Source: Umezawaea endophytica
GTDB taxonomy: Bacteria; Actinomycetota; Actinomycetes; Mycobacteriales; Pseudonocardiaceae
Direction of reading: 5' to 3'
Assembly (NCBI RefSeq): GCF_025061645.1
Contig: NZ_JANYMP010000004.1
Span: forward strand, 257,031-303,104
DNA length: 46,074 bases
The position numbers and the translations under genes were made by a program. Under the pieces are notes generated by a model, which was not told where the DNA came from, searched no databases, and saw only the letters and a list, made by a program, of their open reading frames with translations. Below, piece after piece: positions 35,228-46,057 of this stretch. The stretch's first letter is position 1; each line of letters begins with the position of its first letter.

Positions 35228-37987
35228 ATGTCCACGTTCCGACGCGTCCTGAGCGTCGTCACCGCCTTATTCGTCGCGACCACCACCGCGGTCGCCGTCG
35301 CACCACCGGCTTCGGCTGCCGTCTGGCAGCCGAAGCCGTTCCAGCTCACGACACCCTGGACCAGCCAGGTGTCGCCCACCAACGCCCTGCCCGAGTACCC
35401 GCGCCCGCAGTTGCAGCGCACGGAGTGGCTGAACCTCAACGGGGTGTGGGAGTTCGCCGGGGCCCCCAACCTCGACTCGCCGCCCATCGGCAGGCCGCTC
35501 GCCGAGGGCGTGCTGGTGCCCTACCCGATCGAGTCCGCGCTGTCGGGGATCAAGCGGCACGAGGACAACATGTTCTACCGCCGCACGGTCACCGTGCCGA
35601 CGGCGTGGAGCGGTCGCCGGGTCAACCTCAACTTCGGCGCCGTCACGTGGGAGACCCGCGTCTGGGTCAACGGCGTCCGCGTCGGCGCGACCCACACCGG
35701 CGGCTACGACGCGTTCACCATCGACATCACGTCCGCGCTGAAGGCGGGCGAGAACGAGATCATCGTCGGCGCCCGCTCGACGATCGACGGCAGCCTCTAC
35801 CCGATCGGCAAGCAACGCCGGAACCCCAGCGGCATCTGGTACACCGCCGCGTCCGGGATCTGGCAGACCGTGTGGCTGGAGCCGGTCAACGCGGCGAGCA
35901 TCACCCGGCTCGACACCACGCCGGACGTCAACGCGGGCGTGCTGGACCTCGTCGTGCAGGGCACCGCGGGGATGCAGGCGCGCGCGGAGGTGGTGAGCGG
36001 CGGCCAGGTCGTCGGTACGGCGACCGGTGCGACCGGCGCCCACCTGCGCGTCCCGGTGCCGAACGCGCGGCTGTGGTCGCCGGACGACCCGTTCCTCTAC
36101 GACCTGCGGGTGACCCTGCTGGGCACCGGGGGAGGGGACGCCGTCGTCGGCTACTTCGGCATGAGGTCGGTCGGCAAGGCGATGATCGGCGGTGTGCTGC
36201 GGCCGACGCTGAACGGCAAGTTCGTGTTCCAGCTCGGCACGCTCGACCAGGGCTACTGGCCCGACGGCATCTACACCGCGCCGACGGACGCGGCGCTGCG
36301 GTTCGACCTGGAGCGCCAGAAAGCGTTGGGCTTCAACATGGTCCGCAAGCACATCAAGGTCGAACCGGCCCGGTGGTTCTACCACGCGGACCGGCTCGGG
36401 CTGATGGTGTGGCAGGACATGCCCGCGCTCGACTCCGTCGACGACACCCCGGTCGCCAGCCACGCCAACTACGAGTCGGAGCTGCGCCGGATCGTCGACC
36501 AGCTCAAGGGGATCACCTCGATCGTCCAGTGGGTCCCGTTCAACGAGGGCTGGGGCGAGTACGACAACGGCCGCATCGTCGACCTGGTGCGCTCGATCGA
36601 CAGCACCAGGCTGATCAACCACAACTCCGGGTCGAACTGCTGCGTGTCGGACCCGGAGCCGTCCAACGGCGACGTGATCGACGACCACGCCTACCAGATC
36701 TCCACCGGCACCAGGCTCCCCACGGCCACGCGGGTCGCGGTGCTCGGCGAGTACGGCGGTCTCGGCAGGGCGATCCCCGGCAGCGAGTGGCAGCCGGGAG
36801 CCGGGTTCGCCTACGGCGCGCTGTACCCGGACGAGTCGTCGCTGACGAACCGGTACGTGGACATCACCAAGGAGGTCGGCAAGTTCGTGCACACGCGCGG
36901 GCTGTCGGGGTCGGTCTACACCGAGCCGTACGACGTCGAGAACGAGGTCAACGGCTTCTACACCTACGACCGCCGGGTGCTGAAGATGAACGAGGCGCGG
37001 GTGCGCGAGGTGAACCAGCGGGTGCTGGCCCTGGCGCGCGGCACCGAGGTCGGGCGCGGCGAGCTGGTGTCGCTGCGGGTGACCACCCCCGGTTACACCG
37101 ACCGGTTCCTGCGCCACTCCGACGCGCTGGCGCGCACGGACGTGATCAACGACGGCAGTTCGGACGTGGCCAAGCAGGACGCCACGTTCTGGGCCCGCCC
37201 TGGGCTCTCGAACTCGGCCTGCCTGTCGTTCGAGTCGCGCGACTTCCCCGGCAGGTTCCTGCGGCACTCGAACTTCCGGGTCCGCAACGACCAGAACGAC
37301 GGGTCGTCGGTGTTCGCGGGCGACGCCACGTTCTGCGCCCGCGAGGGAGCGGGCGGCACGGCGCTCGAGTCGGCCAACCTGCCCGGCTACTTCATCCGGC
37401 ACTACAGCGAGGCCGTCTACCTTGCCCGTTCCAGCGGGGCGAACCCGTGGGACGGCGGGGGGACGTTCACGGCCGACAGCACGTGGGCCGCGACGTCCGG
37501 CATCTGGCGCAGCGGCGCTGACCTGCCGCTGGACCAGGCCAGGTCGTTCCGGGTCACCACGCCGGGCTACACCGACCGGTTCCTGCGCCACCAGGCCGAC
37601 CTGGCGCGCACGGACGTGGTGAACGACGCCAGCGCGGCGCTGCTCAAGTCCGACGCCACGTTCGTCGTCCGCCGCGGTCTGGCGAACTCGACGTGCTACT
37701 CGTTCGAGTCGCGCAACTACCCCGGTCGCTTCCTGCGACACGCGGACTTCCGCGTCCGCCTGGCGGCCAACGAGAACACCGACCTGTTCCGGCTGGACGC
37801 GACCTTCTGCGCCCAACCGGGGACGGGCGGCGTCCGGCTCGCGTCGGCCAACGAACTCGGCACCAACGTGAGGCACTACGGCGAAGCCGTGTACGTCGCG
37901 TCGAGCGGCGGCGCCCACGCGTACGACAACCCGTCGTCCTACGACCAGGACACGAGCTGGGCCGTGGCCAACCCCTGGGCTCCCTAG
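35228..37987 (+). CDS. secreted GH2 glycosidase with two AbfB (CBM42) domains
   Basis: A 919-aa secreted enzyme. A signal peptide (about 1-31, ending PPASAA) follows the ATG, which has GGAG upstream. Residues about 60-330 are the GH2 sugar-binding and jelly-roll domains, and about 340-600 the TIM barrel: acid/base Glu440 in WVPFNEGWGEY and nucleophile Glu508 in VLGEYGG. Two AbfB arabinofuranose-binding domains occupy about 613-760 and 771-918, both opening with VTTPGYTDRFLRH. CBM42 modules bind furanosyl side chains, and the upstream importer is of the galactofuranose type. So a beta-galactofuranosidase or arabinofuranosidase is more likely than an ordinary beta-galactosidase. This is inference. 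The end overlaps the opposing TPR gene by 4 bases. Confidence 0.88.
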   Translation: MSTFRRVLSVVTALFVATTTAVAVAPPASAAVWQPKPFQLTTPWTSQVSPTNALPEYPRPQLQRTEWLNLNGVWEFAGAPNLDSPPIGRPLAEGVLVPYPIESALSGIKRHEDNMFYRRTVTVPTAWSGRRVNLNFGAVTWETRVWVNGVRVGATHTGGYDAFTIDITSALKAGENEIIVGARSTIDGSLYPIGKQRRNPSGIWYTAASGIWQTVWLEPVNAASITRLDTTPDVNAGVLDLVVQGTAGMQARAEVVSGGQVVGTATGATGAHLRVPVPNARLWSPDDPFLYDLRVTLLGTGGGDAVVGYFGMRSVGKAMIGGVLRPTLNGKFVFQLGTLDQGYWPDGIYTAPTDAALRFDLERQKALGFNMVRKHIKVEPARWFYHADRLGLMVWQDMPALDSVDDTPVASHANYESELRRIVDQLKGITSIVQWVPFNEGWGEYDNGRIVDLVRSIDSTRLINHNSGSNCCVSDPEPSNGDVIDDHAYQISTGTRLPTATRVAVLGEYGGLGRAIPGSEWQPGAGFAYGALYPDESSLTNRYVDITKEVGKFVHTRGLSGSVYTEPYDVENEVNGFYTYDRRVLKMNEARVREVNQRVLALARGTEVGRGELVSLRVTTPGYTDRFLRHSDALARTDVINDGSSDVAKQDATFWARPGLSNSACLSFESRDFPGRFLRHSNFRVRNDQNDGSSVFAGDATFCAREGAGGTALESANLPGYFIRHYSEAVYLARSSGANPWDGGGTFTADSTWAATSGIWRSGADLPLDQARSFRVTTPGYTDRFLRHQADLARTDVVNDASAALLKSDATFVVRRGLANSTCYSFESRNYPGRFLRHADFRVRLAANENTDLFRLDATFCAQPGTGGVRLASANELGTNVRHYGEAVYVASSGGAHAYDNPSSYDQDTSWAVANPWAP

Positions 37988-40900
37988 ACAGGGCTATGAC
38001 CGGTAGTGGTGGTGCCGTGTCCGCCGTCCACGGCACCACCACCTCCTTCCTCCAAGTCGTCTCCTGTCAGGGAGAGGGCGCGCGCCGCCTCCTCGACCAC
38101 GTGGTCGAGGCCGTCGAGGATGCCGCGGAGCTGGATGCCGATCATCGCGGCCTTGGCGCCGGTGGCGGGATCCCTGTGGGGTTCCAGCGTCGTCAGTTCG
38201 ACCAGTGCCGTGGCGACCAGTCCGCGCTTCTTGGCGGGCGTCACGCGGTCGAGTTCATCCACCGCGCGCTTCACCAGCATGTCCACCTGCCGGACGTCGT
38301 TCCTCGCCAGGCTGAGCAGCACCAGGTTCAGCAGGACGTTCGCGGTCTGGTGGGTCGCGCCGAGCGCCCGGAGGAAGGCCGATCCCGCCTCCTCCGTTCT
38401 CCCCGTCCTCATCAGGCACCAGCCCAGCAGGTTCAGGTCCAGCGCGTTGAGGTGCACTCGACCGGCCAGCCGGTCGACCACCGCTTCGAAGGAGGTGGTG
38501 GCCTCGCCGTGCTCACCGACGGCCATCAGGCACTCGGCCAGTTCCGTCGTGATCGACAAATCTGCGGGCCACCTGCTGTGGGCCTGGCGAGCCCTCTGCA
38601 CGGCCAGGTCGTGCGCTCCGGCCATGCGTGCGGACTTGATCGACAGCCAGGCGGTCTCGGCTCGGGTCACCTGGACGTCCAGCGCGTGGGCCGCGGCGGC
38701 GTCCCACGCGCCCGCGTGCGACCAGATCATGGCCATCGCCGCAGGTGCCGCGCCGTCACCGCGACTGCGGAGCTGCGCGGCCGCGGCCACTGCCTCGTCC
38801 CAGGCGTCGACCGCGAGCAGCCCGGTGATCGCCTTGACGAGGTCGACCGACGCCGTGGCAGTCTTGAACGCCTCGCTGAAGGTCTGCGCGGCCCGGAGCG
38901 ACTGGCCGACGACCAGTTGCGTCCAGCCGATCCTCGTCAACGTCTCGGCGTCGTCTCCGAGTTCGGCGACCGACTCCTCCAGCGCCGAGAGCGTGGAGGC
39001 GTACTCGCCCAGCCTGTAATGCCCGATCGCCTTGTTCAGGTAGTGGTCCCGGTCAGCGGTCCCGTCGTGCTCGGCGTTGCCGAGCAACCGCCGCACCGAC
39101 TCGACCGTGCCGTGATCCGCCTCGAGGACCAGCAGTCGGCTCACCGCGAACCCGTGGTGAGGGTCGACCGCGACCGCGCGGTCGAGGAGGTCGCGCGCCG
39201 CGTCGACGTGACCGTCGTCGAGTTCCACGGTACCCATCACCGCCAGTACGTAAGCGCTGTCCGGATCCCGGTCGAGGGCGGCCTTCGCGAGTTCCCGAGC
39301 CCTTCCCCGATCGCCCTGAATACGGTGGACCTCACCGAGCGCGGCGAGGGCGACGGGTGGGGGATCGGCCTCCTGCGCGAGGCGCTCCAGTTCGGTTTGC
39401 GCTTCACGCAGGCGTTCGAGGCGCCAGAGGACGTCGATCCGCTTCCACTGGAGGTCCTTGTCGACCGCTAGCAGGTCGGGATGTTCGCCCAGCACCGCCA
39501 ACGCCTCGTCCAAGTGGCCGAGCGCCCGCAGCACGTCCACGTGCCCGTGCACCAACCGGGGGTTGAGTGCGTTCAGCCGCCGTGCCTTGGCGTAGAGGGC
39601 GTCGGCCTCGCCCCAGAGGCGGTGCTCGGCGGCGAGGCGTGCACGCCGTTCGGCGATGAGCCGGACGTCACCACCGGAGTCCAAGATCTTCGCCAGCACG
39701 GTGCGCACCACGGTGTCCGCGTCGGACCACACGTGGCCCGTGAGTGTGTTGAAGAGTTGGTCGAGGACCCACTCGTCCTCGGGCGCGTGCGCCGCGGCCT
39801 CGGCCAGTGACGCCACACCTCTCTCGACGTCGTGGAGGGCGATTAGCGATCGCCCTCGACCCACCAAGGCGTCGCTGTACGTCGGTTTGATCCGCAGCGC
39901 CCGGTCGAAGGCTCGCACCGCGTGCTGGTGCCGCCCCGCTCTGCGGTGCACTTCGCCCGACAGCGCGTGGGCCCGCACGTTGTCCGGTTCCTCGCGTAAC
40001 GCCCGTGTGATTGCCTCCTCGGCGGTGAGAATGCCGTCCGGCTTCTCCGCCAGCGCCTGTTCGGCCAGCCACAGCAGCGCGGTGACGTTGTCCGGATCAC
40101 GTTCGAGCACCTTCTTGAACGCGGTTCGCGCCTCCGCGACGTGGTCGAGCACGTCGTGCGCCAGTGCCAGCGACACCGCCATCCACCCCGGTGCCTTGTC
40201 GGGGTCCACCGAGGTGAACCACTCCAGGGCTGTGGCCGCGTTGCCGCGCAGCAGCGCGACCTCGCCCTGGCGTGCCGTCAGTAGCGGATCAGCGCTGGAG
40301 TGCTTCGCAGCCTCGGCGAGGTCGCGCTCGGCGGCGGCGTAGTCCTTGAGCAGGACGTGGGCCCGTCCCCGTAGGTGCGCGGGAGCGGGGGCGTTGGGCG
40401 CGAACAGGACGGCCTTGTCCAGCGTGGTCACGGCATCCCGCACCCGGCCGATGCTGATGAGGACCTCACCGAACCGGGTCAGCACCCACGTGTCCTCGGG
40501 TAGATCGGCGATCACCGCGTCCACCAGCCCCGGATCCTCCTCCAGGCTCCCCGCGCTGTGCCGGGCTATGGCGATCAACGCCCGGCCGAGCGACGGTCTC
40601 CGGGAGATGATCGGCCTCGCCGAGTCGACCGCCCCGCTGAAGTCGTTCGAGCCGAGGAACAGCCGGGTGCGCACAGTGAGCGCGTCCGGTTCCTCGTCGT
40701 CCTGCGCCAACGCCTCGGTCGCGAGGCGGTTCGCGTCCTCTTCGCGTCCTCCGTCCAGCGCCAGACGTGCTGCCATCGCCAGCAGCGACGGGTTACCTGG
40801 CCACTTCAACAGCCCTCGCTCCACCATCGCGACAGCGGCTTCGGGCCCCTCGACGGCGTTGACGACCGCGGCCAAGGCGGCCAGCCGCTGAGCGGTCGGC

Positions 40901-41235
40901 TCTGCTTGATAGGCCGTGTCGAACAGGTGTACCGCCGACGTGAGGGCGCCCTGCTGCCTGCGGGACAGGGCCAGCGCCGTCCACGTCTCGGCGCGGATCC
41001 GGCGGGAGGCCGCGAGTGCGAGCGACGCGAGCCTCGACTCGACGGCCTTCGGCAGCCCGGCGGACGTCAGCCCGCGGACCAACTTGGTGAGGACACTGGT
41101 GGCGACCTCCTCATGCCCCTCGCGCACGGCCTCGGTCGCCTCCTCCAGGCGGAGACGCGAGACCGGTGGGTCCGCGGGTCGCTGCTGAGCCCACGCCAGG
41201 ACGTTGATCGCGTCGGGTTCTCGGTACAGGGTCAC
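37984..41235 (-). CDS. large TPR-repeat protein
   Basis: A 1083-aa cytosolic protein made almost wholly of tetratricopeptide-like repeats: for example GRVRDAVTTLDKAVLFAPNAP, DHVAEARTAFKKVLERDPDNV, GRHQHAVRAFDRALRIKPTYSD, GHVDAARDLLDRAVAVDPHHG, SLRAAQTFSEAFKTATASVD. There is no signal peptide, membrane helix or enzymatic motif. The C-terminus is an acidic/Gly/Thr tail (GDDLEEGGGG). The GTG at 41235 begins 2 bases after the stop of the peptidase-like gene, with AGGTGG upstream, making it the last gene of a four-gene operon. It is probably a scaffold or target-recognition subunit. No known system with this exact composition is recognised. Confidence 0.85.
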   Translation of the reverse strand: MTLYREPDAINVLAWAQQRPADPPVSRLRLEEATEAVREGHEEVATSVLTKLVRGLTSAGLPKAVESRLASLALAASRRIRAETWTALALSRRQQGALTSAVHLFDTAYQAEPTAQRLAALAAVVNAVEGPEAAVAMVERGLLKWPGNPSLLAMAARLALDGGREEDANRLATEALAQDDEEPDALTVRTRLFLGSNDFSGAVDSARPIISRRPSLGRALIAIARHSAGSLEEDPGLVDAVIADLPEDTWVLTRFGEVLISIGRVRDAVTTLDKAVLFAPNAPAPAHLRGRAHVLLKDYAAAERDLAEAAKHSSADPLLTARQGEVALLRGNAATALEWFTSVDPDKAPGWMAVSLALAHDVLDHVAEARTAFKKVLERDPDNVTALLWLAEQALAEKPDGILTAEEAITRALREEPDNVRAHALSGEVHRRAGRHQHAVRAFDRALRIKPTYSDALVGRGRSLIALHDVERGVASLAEAAAHAPEDEWVLDQLFNTLTGHVWSDADTVVRTVLAKILDSGGDVRLIAERRARLAAEHRLWGEADALYAKARRLNALNPRLVHGHVDVLRALGHLDEALAVLGEHPDLLAVDKDLQWKRIDVLWRLERLREAQTELERLAQEADPPPVALAALGEVHRIQGDRGRARELAKAALDRDPDSAYVLAVMGTVELDDGHVDAARDLLDRAVAVDPHHGFAVSRLLVLEADHGTVESVRRLLGNAEHDGTADRDHYLNKAIGHYRLGEYASTLSALEESVAELGDDAETLTRIGWTQLVVGQSLRAAQTFSEAFKTATASVDLVKAITGLLAVDAWDEAVAAAAQLRSRGDGAAPAAMAMIWSHAGAWDAAAAHALDVQVTRAETAWLSIKSARMAGAHDLAVQRARQAHSRWPADLSITTELAECLMAVGEHGEATTSFEAVVDRLAGRVHLNALDLNLLGWCLMRTGRTEEAGSAFLRALGATHQTANVLLNLVLLSLARNDVRQVDMLVKRAVDELDRVTPAKKRGLVATALVELTTLEPHRDPATGAKAAMIGIQLRGILDGLDHVVEEAARALSLTGDDLEEGGGGAVDGGHGTTTTGHSPV
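38006..38042. terminator. terminator hairpin inside the 3' end of the TPR gene
   Basis: A perfect 14-bp stem with a 9-base loop begins 18 bases after the GH2 stop. It lies within the last codons of the opposing TPR gene (encoding the Gly/His/Thr-rich tail), so it can end the GH2 transcript. Confidence 0.7.
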
Positions 41236-41237
41236 GT

Positions 41238-42104
41238 TCAGGCCACCTGGCGTCGCTTGGACCACCGCGACTTGATGTCGTCGGCAACTCGGAGTGGCTC
41301 GGCGTTGTCGACGAGCCTGCGCTGCCACGCCGCTGTCAGCACGTCGGGGACCTCGTCCTCCTGGATCGGTGTGGCACCGGTGTCGCCGTCGTCGCCCAAC
41401 GACCCGTACCACTGCTGGGAGGCCTTCCACCGGTCGTTGTCGTACGGAGGGAAGATCATCATGAGTCCTTCGAAACTCTCCACGGTTCGCTGGACGAAGT
41501 CGTCCAGCCAAGTGTTCTCCGGGATGAAGTGGTCCGCTGCTTCATGCTGGACGGACAAACCGGCGTGGGCCCTCACGGCGGTGTCCCAGATCGTCGTGAG
41601 GCGCGCCACGACGTCGGTGAAGTCCCCTCCGCGGTCAGGTGCCGTCGGACGTTCCCGCCCCAACGTCGCGATGATCACCCGAGCGCGGTCCACGTCACGC
41701 GGTTCGTTGGCCTCCGAGGGCTTGTCGCGCCCAGGGTTCAACCGCAGCAGCAGCGACGCGCACGCATAGGACAGCCCGAGCGTGTAGGTCGCGAACACGT
41801 CCGCCAGCAAGTGCTGGACGTACTCCACACTGGGACTGGGGACACCGGCCTGCGGAGCCGCGGCGAAGCCCTCGACGAGCTGCTTCAGGTCCCCGCCGCA
41901 CTCCTTTTTCGCGTATGCCAGCCCGACTTCGTGGCCCACCAGCGGGATGCCCCAGATCGACCAGTCCGGGAAGCCGAGCAGTACGACGCTGTCGAGTGCG
42001 TTGCCCAGACCGGCGTGCCGTGCGGGCAGCGGGAGCGACCGACCGGTCGCCACTCTGAACCGTGTGAGCAGGGCGTCGGTCATCTCGCAAACACGATCGT
42101 CCAA
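41238..42104 (-). pseudogene. 3' part of a frameshifted coiled-coil/degenerate metallopeptidase gene
   Basis: This frame encodes the C-terminal 289 residues of a peptidase-like protein, opening LDDRVCEMTDALLTRF. It is homologous to the HEFGH protein upstream but its zinc site is altered: GHEVGLAYA replaces AHEFGHHAA, and HLLADVFAT replaces ELVADAVAT. It would be catalytically inactive. The TTG at 42104 has no ribosome site, and an ATG at 42080 is also unlikely as a start. The real N-terminus is in another frame at 42106-42666; removing one T from the TTTT run at 42103-42106 joins them into a 475-aa protein. Whether the shift is a sequencing error, a mutation or recoding cannot be told here. 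TPR gene follows after 2 bases. Confidence 0.75.
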
Positions 42105-42105
42105 A

Positions 42106-42666
42106 ACGGGTGTCGCGAACCGTCAAGCCGCCCAAGAAGTCCACGTACTCGATGAAGACCGGACGTGCTACCTGGTCCAGAAGCTCCTGGTACGCGGCCC
42201 AATGCTCCCTGCGATCGGCAGGGGGAGCGCCGCCGACATTCGCGCGCAACTCGTGCAACTCGGCCATGAGTTCGTTGCACCGGCGGCTCAGGCTCGTCCG
42301 CAGCACCTCCGACCGGTCGTGGAGGCTGACGGCCGTGGCCAACGCGGAGTCCAGGTGCGTGCTCGTGGTGCGGAGGTTTTCGGTGACGGTGGCGATCAGT
42401 TCGGGCAGTTTGCTGATGTCCTCGTCCAGCTCGTAGGTCGTCTCCGCGAGCAGCTTGCCGATCTTGGCCTCGTTGTTCATGGCCGAGTTGAGGGCGGTCA
42501 GTTTGTCCTTGACCGCCCTCCAGGCACGGGCACCGTCCTTGAGGCTGGTCCGCGCTTGCTCCAGCAACGTGCCCCGCTCCTGGGCGCTGTCGACGGCGCT
42601 GCGGACCTTCTTGATGTCGAGTTCCAGCGCGTTCAGCCGCACGATCAGCAGATCCGGTGTCGTCAA
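42106..42666 (-). pseudogene. 5' part of the frameshifted coiled-coil/degenerate metallopeptidase gene
   Basis: This frame encodes 187 residues: a start at TTG 42666 (GGAGGAG just upstream; overlapping the peptidase gene stop), then long amphipathic helices (LNALELDIKKVRSAVDSAQ; LLAETTYELDEDISKLPELI; SLSRRCNELMAELHELRAN) that look coiled-coil. The frame formally continues to 41695, but the protein beyond residue 187 becomes Arg-rich and unlike its neighbours, while the +1 frame takes up the homologous sequence. See the 3' part for the join. The helices may oligomerise the protein or bind the membrane partner. Confidence 0.75.
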
Positions 42667-43763
42667 CGGGCTCCTCCAGTGGCGATCGACCGGCAGTAGG
42701 ACAGTGCGAGGTCGGCCACCGCGGACTCGTCCTCCCCGATGTGGGCCAGCCGCCAGCGCCACACGCCGTCGAGGACAGCGAGGACGCTCGCATCCGCGGG
42801 TGGTTCGGGATCCAGCTGAGCCAACCTGTGCGCCACGTCGATGGCCGCGTCGGCGTCCCGGTAGACGAGTCCCGGCCGATGGCGCACGATCGAGACGACC
42901 GTCCGCTCAGCCGCTTCGGCGGCGGCGGGCGCGGGTGGGCACAGGGTGCGGAACAGGCTGTTCTCGACAGCCCTGACCGTGGTGAGGTGCGCGTCCCGGT
43001 AGCGGTGGAGCCCGGTCGCGGCGGTGAGCGCCTCCAGCACGGCCCCCATCGTCGCCACCCGGTCCCTCCACGACGGGTGGGTGCTGGTCGTCGCGGAGGC
43101 CCGTCCGCCGTCGGACGTCCTCAGGCACAGCGTGGCGATCGGGTAGGTGGGGCCGAGGCACGTGGTGGCGACCGCGTCGGCGACGAGTTCGTTCGCGTGG
43201 CTCCGCGCCTTGTCGAGATCCCCGCCGATCGTTCCTGCGACCGAATCCACCACGTCCTGCAACGGTCGCGAATCCCTCAGGGCCGGGTCCAGGTGCGGTA
43301 GTCGGGCGGCGGCGTGGTGACCGAATTCGTGAGCGAGGAACGGCAGGTCCCACACCCTGGTGCCGGGAAAGCGCAGAGAGATCGTCGAGCGGTCCTCGTC
43401 GATCGACTCCAATTCCTGCGTGTGACCCAGCACGACGCCGGGAAGCCCGGCGGTGGACGTTAACCGGGAAAGCAGAAAATCGGCCACTTCGAACACGCCA
43501 GAATCCAATTTCGCGTCCTGGAGCAGTCGATTCATCCCGAGCGCCAGAACCTCCCGGACCAGGGGATCCGCGTCCCTGGCCGAGGCGTGCCACGTCGACC
43601 AGTCGGTGCCGCTCCGTGTCGTCAACGACTGCGCCTCGACCCGGTCGGTGAGGCCGGTGAGGCCTGTAGTCGTGTGGTCGAGGAAGCGGGCCAAGTCCTC
43701 CATCCGGGCGTTCTCCGCGGCGATTCGGAATCGGAGCACGGCGTCCAGATCAAGAAGGGGCAT
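42663..43763 (-). CDS. HEFGH zinc-metallopeptidase-like protein
   Basis: A 366-aa cytosolic protein. The zincin motif is His145-Glu146-Phe-Gly-His149 (FLAHEFGHHAA), with a probable third ligand Glu192 in HANELVADAVATTCLG, a gluzincin pattern like that of ImmA/IrrE or M48 peptidases. Residues 1-90 are helical (AAENARMEDLARFLDHTT). A later region (TSTHPSWRDRVATMGAVLEALT) resembles the HPS...R segment seen downstream of the active site in M48-like peptidases. ATG 43763 has GAGGA upstream and overlaps the previous gene by 14 bases. It is the catalytic candidate of the four-gene operon; the next gene is a zinc-site-defective paralogue. Substrate unknown. Confidence 0.82.
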   Translation of the reverse strand: MPLLDLDAVLRFRIAAENARMEDLARFLDHTTTGLTGLTDRVEAQSLTTRSGTDWSTWHASARDADPLVREVLALGMNRLLQDAKLDSGVFEVADFLLSRLTSTAGLPGVVLGHTQELESIDEDRSTISLRFPGTRVWDLPFLAHEFGHHAAARLPHLDPALRDSRPLQDVVDSVAGTIGGDLDKARSHANELVADAVATTCLGPTYPIATLCLRTSDGGRASATTSTHPSWRDRVATMGAVLEALTAATGLHRYRDAHLTTVRAVENSLFRTLCPPAPAAAEAAERTVVSIVRHRPGLVYRDADAAIDVAHRLAQLDPEPPADASVLAVLDGVWRWRLAHIGEDESAVADLALSYCRSIATGGAR

Positions 43764-44793
43764 GGTGGTCCTCGACGAGCAGGCGGACACCCCGCACGCG
43801 GCCTGGCAGGTCGGTGGCACCGGTGTGGTCGCGCCCCGCCAGCACGAGCGCGGCCAGCACGAGCACGAGGCCCGTGGACGTCAGCGCTGCTGCTTGGGGA
43901 AGGGTGATCTGCACTAGTGCCAGCACGCCCGCCAACCCGGTGATCACGACAGCGATGCGGCCCAAGATGGTGCAAACCTTGTCGAAGGTACGGACGAGGT
44001 CGCCCAACCGGCGTGCCACCAGTCGCTTCTCGGCGCCCACCGGTTCGGTGAGCCCTTTGCCGACCGAGGTCGCCCCGATGGCCCATCCCGCGATGACCGT
44101 GCCGTCCTCCCCCCGGCCCAGCCGGGTCAGCACCTCGTCGAGGTCGGCGCGGAGCCGCTCGACCGCGGTGAAGTCCGCCAACCTCAGGAGAAGGCTGAGA
44201 CCTCGGCGGATCGCGCGCAACGCCAGCGTGAGCAGCCGGCTCGGCGTCGCGACGTCCAAGTCCGTGACGAGGTCGCGCAGCACCGTGGGCACTTGGTCGA
44301 CGACCGGCCGGAAGGTCTTGTCCAGCAGGGAGGTCGTTACCTCCGCCGCAGCGGTGGACAGCGAGTCCAGCGACTCCCGCGCCACCTCTAGCACGGACCG
44401 GTCCGCGTCACCAGTGCCGTCGAACCCGCGGATCGGGCCGGACTCGCGACCCACGTTCTCCAAGACGTCTGACGTGAACGCCAACGAGGCGGCCGCGGAT
44501 TGGAGTTCTCCCACCCGCGCGGGGTCGATCAGCACCCCGTCGGCGACGCACAGCGTGGCGCCGATCGAGAGCTGCGCGAGCGCGGACTCCAGCAACTCCT
44601 GGTCGCTCGGTTCGGCGACGGGAGCGAATCCGCGGGTGGAGTCCCCAACCGTCCTCTTCGCGTTCGACTCGAGCCGGTCGAACGCCAAACCGACGTCGTA
44701 CCCGTCCGTCCTGATCGCGTGGACGAGGGTGTTCGCGGCAGAGGCGACAGACCGCGTGCTTTCTGCAGACGAAGCGTTCGTCGTGGTATCCAT
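43750..44793 (-). CDS. protein with two C-terminal membrane helices, first gene of the peptidase operon
   Basis: A 347-aa protein: an N-terminal helical region rich in Ser/Ala, central segments (SIGATLCVADGVLIDPARVGELQ; VARESLDSLSTAAAEVTTSLLDKTF; RLRADLDEVLTRLGRGEDGTVIAGW) and two hydrophobic helices near the C-terminus (TILGRIAVVITGLAGVLALVQI; ALTSTGLVLVLAALVLAG). There is no signal peptide, so most of it should be cytosolic and tethered. A strong GGGAGGTAAC precedes the ATG. It probably brings the peptidase proteins to the membrane. No family is recognised. Confidence 0.8.
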   Translation of the reverse strand: MDTTTNASSAESTRSVASAANTLVHAIRTDGYDVGLAFDRLESNAKRTVGDSTRGFAPVAEPSDQELLESALAQLSIGATLCVADGVLIDPARVGELQSAAASLAFTSDVLENVGRESGPIRGFDGTGDADRSVLEVARESLDSLSTAAAEVTTSLLDKTFRPVVDQVPTVLRDLVTDLDVATPSRLLTLALRAIRRGLSLLLRLADFTAVERLRADLDEVLTRLGRGEDGTVIAGWAIGATSVGKGLTEPVGAEKRLVARRLGDLVRTFDKVCTILGRIAVVITGLAGVLALVQITLPQAAALTSTGLVLVLAALVLAGRDHTGATDLPGRVRGVRLLVEDHHAPS

Positions 44794-45106
44794 CGGCTGT
44801 TACCTCCCTTTCGCCGGAGCGGAGCCAATTGTTCCGCGTTCGCTTCCGGCGATTCAGGGCTATCATCGCGCACTTACGACTCCCTGTTACGACAGATTTT
44901 TGCTGTCACCTGATCGAGTGCTCTCATTGGCTTGAGATTACCGATTTTTGCGGATTACTTCGTGATTTATGCCGATTCGGTTGCGGACAATCGGGTCGGG
45001 TGTACCGCTGAAAGGGGGGAGTTGCGGCTCACGTGTGAATGACCGTACGACCAATTGGTGGCCACCCTGTGTCGCGCGGGTCCCCGGTGCCGGCAGGCTG
45101 GGCCAC
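44794..45106. promoter_or_regulatory. AT-rich divergent promoter region of the peptidase operon and the oxidoreductase
   Basis: A 313-base gap, notably AT-rich at 44860-44990. GACAG-ATTTTTG-CTGTC (44891-44907) and CCG-ATTTTTG-CGG (44941-44953) are two hairpins with the same loop, and GATTTTTGC is thus a 9-bp direct repeat at 49-bp spacing. ACCAATTGGT at 45050-45059 is a 10-bp palindrome before the oxidoreductase gene. These are candidates for regulator binding; no regulator is encoded next to them. Confidence 0.45.
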
Positions 45107-46057
45107 ATGGTCGACAAGCCAGTGAAGCTGGGCATCATCGGACTCGGCGCCATGGGTGGACGGGTGTTGGACGTGGCCGCGGAGCACGCGGACCTGGAGG
45201 TCGTGCGCGCCTGTGACCTCGATCAGGCGACGCTCGACCGGGTGGCCGCGGCGCACCCGGAGATCGCCGTGAGCCGGGACCCGGCGGACGTGCTGGGCGC
45301 CTCGGACGTGGAGGCGGTCTACCTCGCCACGCCTCCCGCTTTCCACGCGGAGCTGACCGTGGCGGCGCTGGGGGCGGGCAAGGCGGTGTTCTGCGAGAAG
45401 CCGCTGTCGGTCAGCGCGGAGGACGGGCGGACGATGCGGGACGCGGCCGCGGCGAGCGGGCTCGCGACGGCGGTGAACTTCGCGCTCTCGGACCGGGACG
45501 TCGTGCTGGAGGTCGAGCGGGCGCTGGCCGCCGGTGAGGCGGGCGAGGTGCTCGGCGTCGACGTCCGGCTCCAGTTCCCCCAGTGGCCCCGCGAGTTCCA
45601 GGCGGACGCGGCGTGGCTGGACGGGCGGCAGCAGGGCGGGTTCGTGCGGGAGGTGTTCTCGCACTTCGCGTACCTGACGGACCGGCTGCTGGGGCCGTTG
45701 CGGGCGGTCGACGTGAGCGCCGACTTCCCCGCCGAGGGCAGTGAGGTGGCCGCGCGCGGGCTGCTGCGGGCCGGCGACGTGCCGGTGCACTTCACCGGGG
45801 TCGCGGGCGTCGCCGGACCCGAGGTGTACGAGTGGGTCCTGTGGGGGACGCGCCGGTCGTACCGGCTGCGAGACTGGGCGAGGCTGGAGGTCTTCGAGGA
45901 CGGCTCCTGGAACCCCGTCCCCAGCCGCCGGAGGGGCTCGGACGCCTCGCGCCTCGGCCTGTTCGCCGAGGCCGTGCGCGGGACCGGCTCGCCGAACCTG
46001 GCGGGCTTCGACATCGCCCTGCGGGTGCAGGAGGCCGTGGAGGCGTTCCACGCGTGA
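45107..46057 (+). CDS. Gfo/Idh/MocA-family oxidoreductase
   Basis: A 316-aa NAD(P)-dependent sugar or inositol dehydrogenase-like protein. The Rossmann motif is KLGIIGLGAMGGRV, followed by VVRACDLDQ, VYLATPPAFHAEL and the active-site EKP in AVFCEKPLSVSAEDG. The later FVREVFSHFAYLTDRLLG holds the candidate catalytic His. The ATG at 45107 gives the normal start; the preceding frame to 44969 is not protein-like. Substrate unknown; it diverges from the peptidase operon and could be unrelated to it. Confidence 0.9.
   Translation: MVDKPVKLGIIGLGAMGGRVLDVAAEHADLEVVRACDLDQATLDRVAAAHPEIAVSRDPADVLGASDVEAVYLATPPAFHAELTVAALGAGKAVFCEKPLSVSAEDGRTMRDAAAASGLATAVNFALSDRDVVLEVERALAAGEAGEVLGVDVRLQFPQWPREFQADAAWLDGRQQGGFVREVFSHFAYLTDRLLGPLRAVDVSADFPAEGSEVAARGLLRAGDVPVHFTGVAGVAGPEVYEWVLWGTRRSYRLRDWARLEVFEDGSWNPVPSRRRGSDASRLGLFAEAVRGTGSPNLAGFDIALRVQEAVEAFHA

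Follow-up and report, generated by a model that had tools for sequence, protein, structure and literature searches.

A minus-strand operon with a predicted peptidase and its defective paralogue

The window analyzed here is a 46,074-nucleotide stretch of the Umezawaea endophytica genome (contig NZ_JANYMP010000004.1, positions 257,031 to 303,104), in which an original prediction made from the sequence alone had placed four genes on one strand, encoding a membrane-tethered protein, an HEFGH peptidase-like protein, a zinc-site-defective paralogue of that peptidase, and a 1083-aa tetratricopeptide repeat (TPR) protein. We confirmed the coordinates of this minus-strand run, in which consecutive genes are separated by -14 (genes 1 and 2), -4 (genes 2 and 3) and +2 bases (genes 3 and 4); across all four copies of the cassette described below, the gaps range from -14 to +7 bases. 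The features of the operon are as follows.

43750..44793, minus strand: gene 1, 347 aa, a probable membrane anchor whose N-terminal part looks soluble and whose C-terminal part carries a hydrophobic hairpin
42663..43763, minus strand: gene 2, 366 aa, a zincin-like peptidase in which the zinc-site motifs are complete
43317..43331, minus strand: HEFGH motif of gene 2, from the sequence and its invariance across homologues
43176..43190, minus strand: ELVAD of gene 2, containing the predicted third zinc ligand E192, from alignments
43059..43079, minus strand: HPSWRDR (HPx4R) of gene 2, from alignments; an active-site-plug motif according to the available part of PMC7950410 on M48 peptidases
41238..42666, minus strand: gene 3, a coiled-coil-like N-terminal region followed by a zinc-site-defective paralogue of gene 2; frame-shifted near 42,104-42,110
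37984..41235, minus strand: gene 4, 1083-aa TPR protein, from Pfam TPR models and homologues

Papers cited by PMC number are represented here by parts of their text. We scanned the window proteins against Pfam, NCBIfam and PADLOC, and the homologues from other genomes against Pfam. The TPR assignment of gene 4 held, with matches to many Pfam TPR models (best TPR_19, E 3e-38), and its homologues are proteins of 1060-1159 aa with 24-36% identity; a PADLOC PrimPol match to gene 4 (E 0.0011) lies within the TPR region. Genes 1-3 of the window stayed below every Pfam and NCBIfam curated cut-off, as did their homologues in Pfam. Gene 1 had no match in Pfam, NCBIfam or PADLOC, and a PDB search with its profile returned a single chance-level match (E 0.45). 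A simple hydropathy scan of gene 1 found C-terminal hydrophobic stretches at residues 280-298 and 296-314, a borderline stretch at 71-89, and none at the N terminus; its homologues at the other three cassette loci (L009, L010 and L011; 24-46% identity) have two, two and one such stretches, suggesting that the tether originally predicted is probably a C-terminal anchor. In the window's genes 2-4, the same scan detected no hydrophobic stretch at the N terminus, although no dedicated signal-peptide predictor was run. The N-terminal part of gene 3 showed sub-threshold matches of a coiled-coil type (Pfam DUF7217, E 0.0016; NCBIfam SMC, 0.003; PADLOC DruC, 0.0031), together with similarly weak ones to SMC/Rad50 and JetC models at E 0.003 or worse.

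Gene 2 of the window carries HEFGHH, in keeping with the peptidase-like character first ascribed to it, and residues H145, E146, H149, E192, D196, H229, P230 and R235 are invariant in all four copies. The spacing from H149 to H229 falls within the 30-140 residues after HExxH that are given for HPx4R in M48 peptidases (PMC7950410). Gene 3 and gene 2 retrieve each other in sequence searches, and a profile-profile comparison aligned them with a probability of 98.5% over 279 columns, the gene 3 alignment containing both pieces from the window, one of them with a tail that is out of frame. The zinc site of gene 3 is degraded in every copy: the second histidine of HExxH is gone in 4/4 and the first in two, the position of the glutamate ligand holds His (window), Gln (L009) or Ala (L010 and L011), and the histidine of HPx4R is lost in all four while its arginine is retained. 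Because a histidine occupies the glutamate-ligand position in the window copy, a weak metal site is possible there. HPx4R was present in 16/16 tree rows other than gene 3, vs. 0/4 gene 3 rows.

In a midpoint-rooted tree, whose root serves for drawing only, gene 2 copies grouped with support of 100/99, gene 3 copies with 84/81 (grouped in 88% of bootstrap trees), and the two together with 99/99 against 12 relatives. The gene 2 and gene 3 subtrees have identical internal order. The simplest reading would be a single duplication older than the divergence of the four cassettes, after which both copies were retained together.

The four genes are present or absent as a unit

Gene 2 was found in four of 390 genomes of the family, and all four carry genes 1-2-3-4 in the same order and on the same strand, so the four genes form one unit, as proposed; in no carrier was the peptidase found without the other three. 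The carriers belong to four genera, and one (G218) has an estimated contamination of 7%. A search for gene 3 with the L009 copy as query recovered the same four genomes among 386. These family searches scored the best four or five candidates per genome, and some copies may have been missed.

Beyond the family, six of 396 genomes in a phylum search matched gene 2 at E up to 0.01, of which we kept the window genome and G730. Matches in G425, G429 and G587 were dropped for stop codons within the matched stretch, and one in G659 because its coverage is confined to model positions 322-371 and misses the zinc motif. No genome matched at 1e-5 in a class search of 394 genomes, a set without a positive control. 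A wider profile applied at 0.001 matched three of 341 phylum genomes, namely the window genome (G000), G657 and G730; the phylum, class and wider-profile genome sets overlap. The sole match of a genome contig scan (L008, Sphingosinithalassobacter) was judged by eye to be another, M48-like protein, which has the motif in common and does not belong to the cassette. A plasmid collection contained no match for gene 2 of the window or of L010, the phage searches returned no match, and neither did viral contigs with A1, the G730 protein or A6 as query.

Comparison of related genomes supports gain or loss as a unit. In G319, the cassette is flanked by genes for an M16 peptidase and a DUF456 protein; in G306, which lacks the cassette, ~20 bases separate the matched portions of this gene pair, and in G321, also without it, the matches are ~325 bases apart, with the first 60 residues of the DUF456 protein unmatched. 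Other genes occupy the interval in G323. The M16-DUF456 interval (L076-L078 and L009), empty in two species and holding differing genes in two, may be an insertion hot spot. On the window side, both congeners examined have the orthologue of the flanking Gfo/Idh gene with no cassette adjoining it, and gene 2 was unmatched in either. Third-position guanine-plus-cytosine (GC) content in the window was 0.85-0.89 for the cassette genes vs. 0.92-0.96 for three neighbors.

The peptidases are distant kin of a zincin family that adjoins Argonautes

The weak match in G730 is a 376-aa protein with the motifs HEMAH, EEIACD, GPAY and HPPDHIR. Searches of the plasmid collection returned five records with this protein as query, seven with a Runella query and seven with a Natrinema query, giving 11 distinct records, five bacterial and six haloarchaeal (Cyanobacteriota, Bacteroidota, Pseudomonadota and the class Halobacteria). 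Profiles of these Argonaute-linked peptidases matched gene 2 with a probability of 94.5 and a score of 62.6 (best of 40 column shuffles, 17.3) and gene 3 with 95.2 and 67.4 (best of 40, 17.0); genes 2 and 3 jointly scored 95.8 (probability 97.7). Eleven columns are invariant in an 11-row alignment (A7) of the wider family: P133, H145, E146, H149, E192, D196, G204, H229, P230, R235 and W335. HExxH and the downstream glutamate ligand are thus present in all 11 rows as well as in all four cassette copies of gene 2. We conclude that genes 2 and 3 are distant kin of an unnamed zincin family, a relationship that, like the frame break in gene 3 discussed below, had gone unnoticed in the original prediction.

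An Argonaute adjoins the peptidase on 11/11 plasmid records examined. The loci (L085-L089, L090, L091 and L096-L099) each encode a zincin of ~350-410 aa and a small gene product of 112-150 aa. In all five bacterial loci, a Cas4-like nuclease, a long Argonaute, the small gene and the peptidase lie on one strand, preceded in four by an annotated helix-turn-helix (HTH) or sigma-factor gene; PADLOC recognized the Argonaute as pAgo_II and the nuclease as Aga_Cas4-like_Nuc in 5/5. In all six haloarchaeal loci, the small gene and the peptidase are followed by a PADLOC-recognized prokaryotic Argonaute (pAgo) on the opposite strand, with other genes between peptidase and pAgo in the Natrinema locus; Halorussus and Halosimplex each also have a second place, outside the loci read. 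A search with the Runella Argonaute returned exactly the five bacterial plasmids, and one with the Haloplanus Argonaute exactly the six haloarchaeal ones (both at E up to 1e-10), so that the pairing holds for relatives of two Argonautes in one plasmid collection and not for Argonautes generally. One plasmid peptidase and two small proteins tested against PADLOC gave no matches, nor did two small proteins tested against Pfam. Homology between gene 1 and the small gene of the plasmid loci was sought and not found (score 15.1, probability 0.3; shuffles up to 12.9).

Two further relatives stand in other company. In G657 (L100:6922-8853), the peptidase is fused to a dCTP-deaminase-like DCD domain (PF22769, E 5e-34), with a CHAT-domain gene ~2.4 kb downstream. 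Close to the peptidase of G730 (L084:7618-11894), on the opposite strand, are a Multi_ubiq gene (E 2e-5) and a ThiF gene whose match to JAB is sub-threshold. No Argonaute was found in either of these 16-17 kb stretches.

Relation to M48 peptidases

The order HExxH, Glu, HPx4R is that of M48 peptidases, in which the HPx4R loop acts as an autoinhibitory plug (PMC7950410, on BepA). Gene 2 resembles M48 and BepA in having these three elements and a TPR partner. It differs in that none of its four copies matches PF01435 (Peptidase_M48) at E up to 1, that genes 2-4 have no N-terminal hydrophobic stretch by hydropathy, whereas BepA joins protease and TPR on one secreted polypeptide and the cassette keeps them on separate genes, and that a zinc-site-defective paralogue belongs to the cassette. 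A PDB search with the profile of gene 2 returned no chain at E up to 10.

We also compared profiles with 16 M48 sequences from four genomes of the family, a set restricted to HPx4R-bearing members and therefore favoring M48. Gene 2 gave a probability of 73.9 and a score of 43.4 (30 shuffles up to 18.2; reversed profiles up to 25.2), gene 3 a probability of 0.1, and the wider family 3.1-3.8. The joint family scored 32.1 against M48 vs. 34.1 against an M78 control of five sequences; since this control scores no lower, a specific M48 assignment of the wider family is weakened. M56, a further control family, was not represented in the four genomes. We therefore call gene 2 a predicted zincin with an M48-type motif set.

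A frame break in gene 3

In the window, gene 3 is split across two frames, one holding the N-terminal part and open down to 41698, the other holding the paralogous domain and open from 42122 to 41241, with homology switching between them near 42,104-42,110. The three other copies (L009, L010 and L011) are uninterrupted, single open frames of 457-474 aa. The paralogue that was originally predicted to be zinc-site-defective is thus indeed so, and is in addition broken in this one of the four copies. The uninterrupted frame of these three other copies led us to reject a programmed frame shift. The break could be a real mutation or, as the window genome is assembled in 65 contigs, an assembly error.

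The unit may on this account be decaying in the window genome, with a non-functional system as the outcome, a reading that is compatible with any of the others weighed below. The frame break set beside the intact gene 3 elsewhere speaks for it; genes 1, 2 and 4 are intact in the window, however, and the second part of gene 3 retains 55% identity to its counterpart at L009, which together with the possible assembly error leaves decay a tentative proposition.

A candidate conflict cassette

Immune genes of bacteria and archaea adjoin the distant relatives of its protease, so the unit may represent a defense system not yet described. Our preferred reading, to which we give a probability of about 0.55, is that the operon is a self-contained, horizontally acquired, membrane-anchored, TPR-gated zinc-protease conflict cassette. 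Gene 2 would be the active protease, and the gene 3 pseudopeptidase would probably pair with it as a gate. The TPR scaffold of gene 4 would probably hold this pair and recognize a trigger or substrate, and gene 1 would tether the assembly to the membrane. At rest, the protease would be restrained by the HPx4R plug, the pseudopeptidase and its TPR partner; an invader cue would free it to cleave its target, which could be a protein of the cell or of the invader, perhaps the gene 1 product itself. What the computation shows is the operon structure, the conservation and the presence or absence of the four genes together, the paralogy, the ligand loss in gene 3 and the distant kinship to peptidases that adjoin Argonaute genes; that zinc is bound, protein is cut, a complex is formed and gated, a trigger is recognized and defense results is what we infer. 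The original prediction had likened the locus to a regulated proteolysis or conflict-type complex; the immune neighbors of its distant peptidase relatives favor the conflict half of that proposal, and proteolysis and complex formation keep the conditional standing they had.

Several observations weigh against this reading. Only four copies are known, all within one family, and wider-family relatives are just 11-17% identical to gene 2 of the window. An AlphaFold2 model of gene 2, computed from an alignment of the window's two paralogues only, was of low confidence (mean predicted local distance difference test score [pLDDT] 38.6, predicted template modeling score [pTM] 0.29), leaving the fold without structural support. 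Third-position GC of the cassette genes in the other three genomes is 0.85-0.94 and not clearly distinct from the surroundings (the values for L9 pnp and L11 amt, apparently out of frame, were not used), which makes composition weak evidence for acquisition. Proximity to a defense island, suggested as a check at the outset, was not borne out: of the 10 flanking proteins that we chose, none matched PADLOC at E up to 1e-5, a partial check, and those named by Pfam in nearly the same set of 10 are mostly metabolic, regulatory or transport proteins. Library scans recognized no nuclease, NTPase or Argonaute within the cassette, and gene 3 is frame-broken in the window's own genome.

The same evidence bears on what else the unit could be. 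A regulated protease complex at the membrane that serves quality control or development, with a logic like that of the M48-TPR protein BepA and no conflict role, would account for the zinc motif and HPx4R, for the TPR partner and membrane protein, and for the largely metabolic, regulatory and transport character of the named flanking genes. A housekeeping function of this kind sits poorly with a distribution of 4/390 genomes in four genera, with a unit that is wholly present or wholly absent at one site, and with outside kin that lie among immune genes, and we consider it unlikely. Sporadic inheritance as a unit is what a selfish, addiction-type module would display, its protease and partners acting as a poison-restraint set by which the element is maintained; adjoining active and inactive copies and the plasmid kin with their small upstream gene would also suit it. 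We saw no mobility genes adjoining the cassette by eye, though, and a 1083-aa TPR protein plus a membrane protein is large for an addiction module, making this explanation improbable.

More improbable still is a cassette for peptide maturation or export, with the protease trimming a secreted or signaling peptide. Its precedent is that actinobacterial zincins process small FxSxx-type peptides beside conflict genes (PMC7159879, in part), and a short precursor gene could have escaped our open reading frame listing, which took frames of at least 90 aa. Against it, no transporter or modifying enzyme was recognized within the unit, and the G319 interval leaves ~300 bases beyond the four genes. On balance, we regard the operon as a real, compact four-gene unit of which we found no description, with a conflict role likely.

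Comparison with known conflict systems

As originally supposed, no named system or described complex of this composition was matched in the libraries searched. One close likeness is to the pAgo_II/Aga_Cas4-like_Nuc loci and the haloarchaeal pAgo loci, which have a distantly homologous peptidase in a tight gene cluster. Unlike them, the cassette has no recognized Argonaute or nuclease (genes 1-4 gave no PIWI or PADLOC pAgo match), and the plasmid loci for their part place a small gene (112-150 aa) before the peptidase, with no second peptidase copy or TPR gene annotated adjoining.

Protease modules shift between unrelated immune systems (PMC12799240), which follows a similar logic, and the nuclease-protease pairs described in the consulted part of that paper share with our unit a protease module that recurs across unrelated immune contexts and, in some loci, TPR genes. 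Their proteases are trypsin-like or caspases, a different class, and the cassette lacks a recognized metallo-beta-lactamase (MBL)-type nuclease; genes 1-4 had no Pfam or NCBIfam match to a trypsin- or caspase-type protease or an MBL-type nuclease. Conflict systems of multicellular bacteria that bear proteases and TPR proteins around an NTPase core, with a zincin-based peptide-processing add-on, are described in PMC7159879. These NTP-dependent multi-gene systems resemble the cassette in their proteases, inactive enzyme copies and TPR proteins, and differ from it in that no MoxR, vWA, STAND or other NTPase was recognized in genes 1-4, where no NTPase match rose above cut-off.

Cas4-family nucleases beside Argonautes are mentioned in PMC6299218 and PMC2743648. 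In the main texts as available, "protease" occurs in neither of these and once, as a reagent, in PMC10620215, and "peptidase" in none of the three; no open-licence PMC full text combined pAgo, metalloprotease and Cas4. Rare zincin-like fusions are reported for pPIWI-RE, another PIWI family, by authors who were unsure of them and considered an annotation artefact possible (PMC3702460, in part). An M48-family gene within a phage-defense island is recorded in the available part of PMC12255303. The excerpts of PMC4158269, PMC10653904, PMC12988326 and PMC13092281 contain nothing cassette-like.

Going beyond the single locus, we tentatively propose, at somewhat less than even odds, that the cassette is an Argonaute-free, self-sufficient branch of an unrecognized immune protease family spread across bacteria and haloarchaea. 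That family would join several immune machines (long Argonautes, a DCD fusion and, possibly, conjugation of the ubiquitin-like kind), and in the cassette a TPR sensor would accompany a duplicated, dead protease that gates its live counterpart at the membrane. If this is true, the family would be a general proteolytic switch of prokaryotic immunity. The curated libraries searched name neither the cassette peptidase nor the wider-family members tested, despite the Argonaute neighbors on every plasmid record examined. Should the family prove to be an immune protease, a proteolytic step unmentioned in the portions of the literature consulted would be part of some long Argonaute loci. The cassette represents a compact form free of Argonaute, with an active and a dead copy that are genetically separable, and it allows a direct test of a pseudopeptidase gating an immune protease in bacteria.

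Repeat in the flanking Gfo/Idh gene

Beside the operon, ~654 bases of the Gfo/Idh gene (45062-46054 in the window) are repeated just past the window end (G000:C4:303113-303772) with 100% protein identity, which may reflect either a recent tandem duplication or an assembly artefact.

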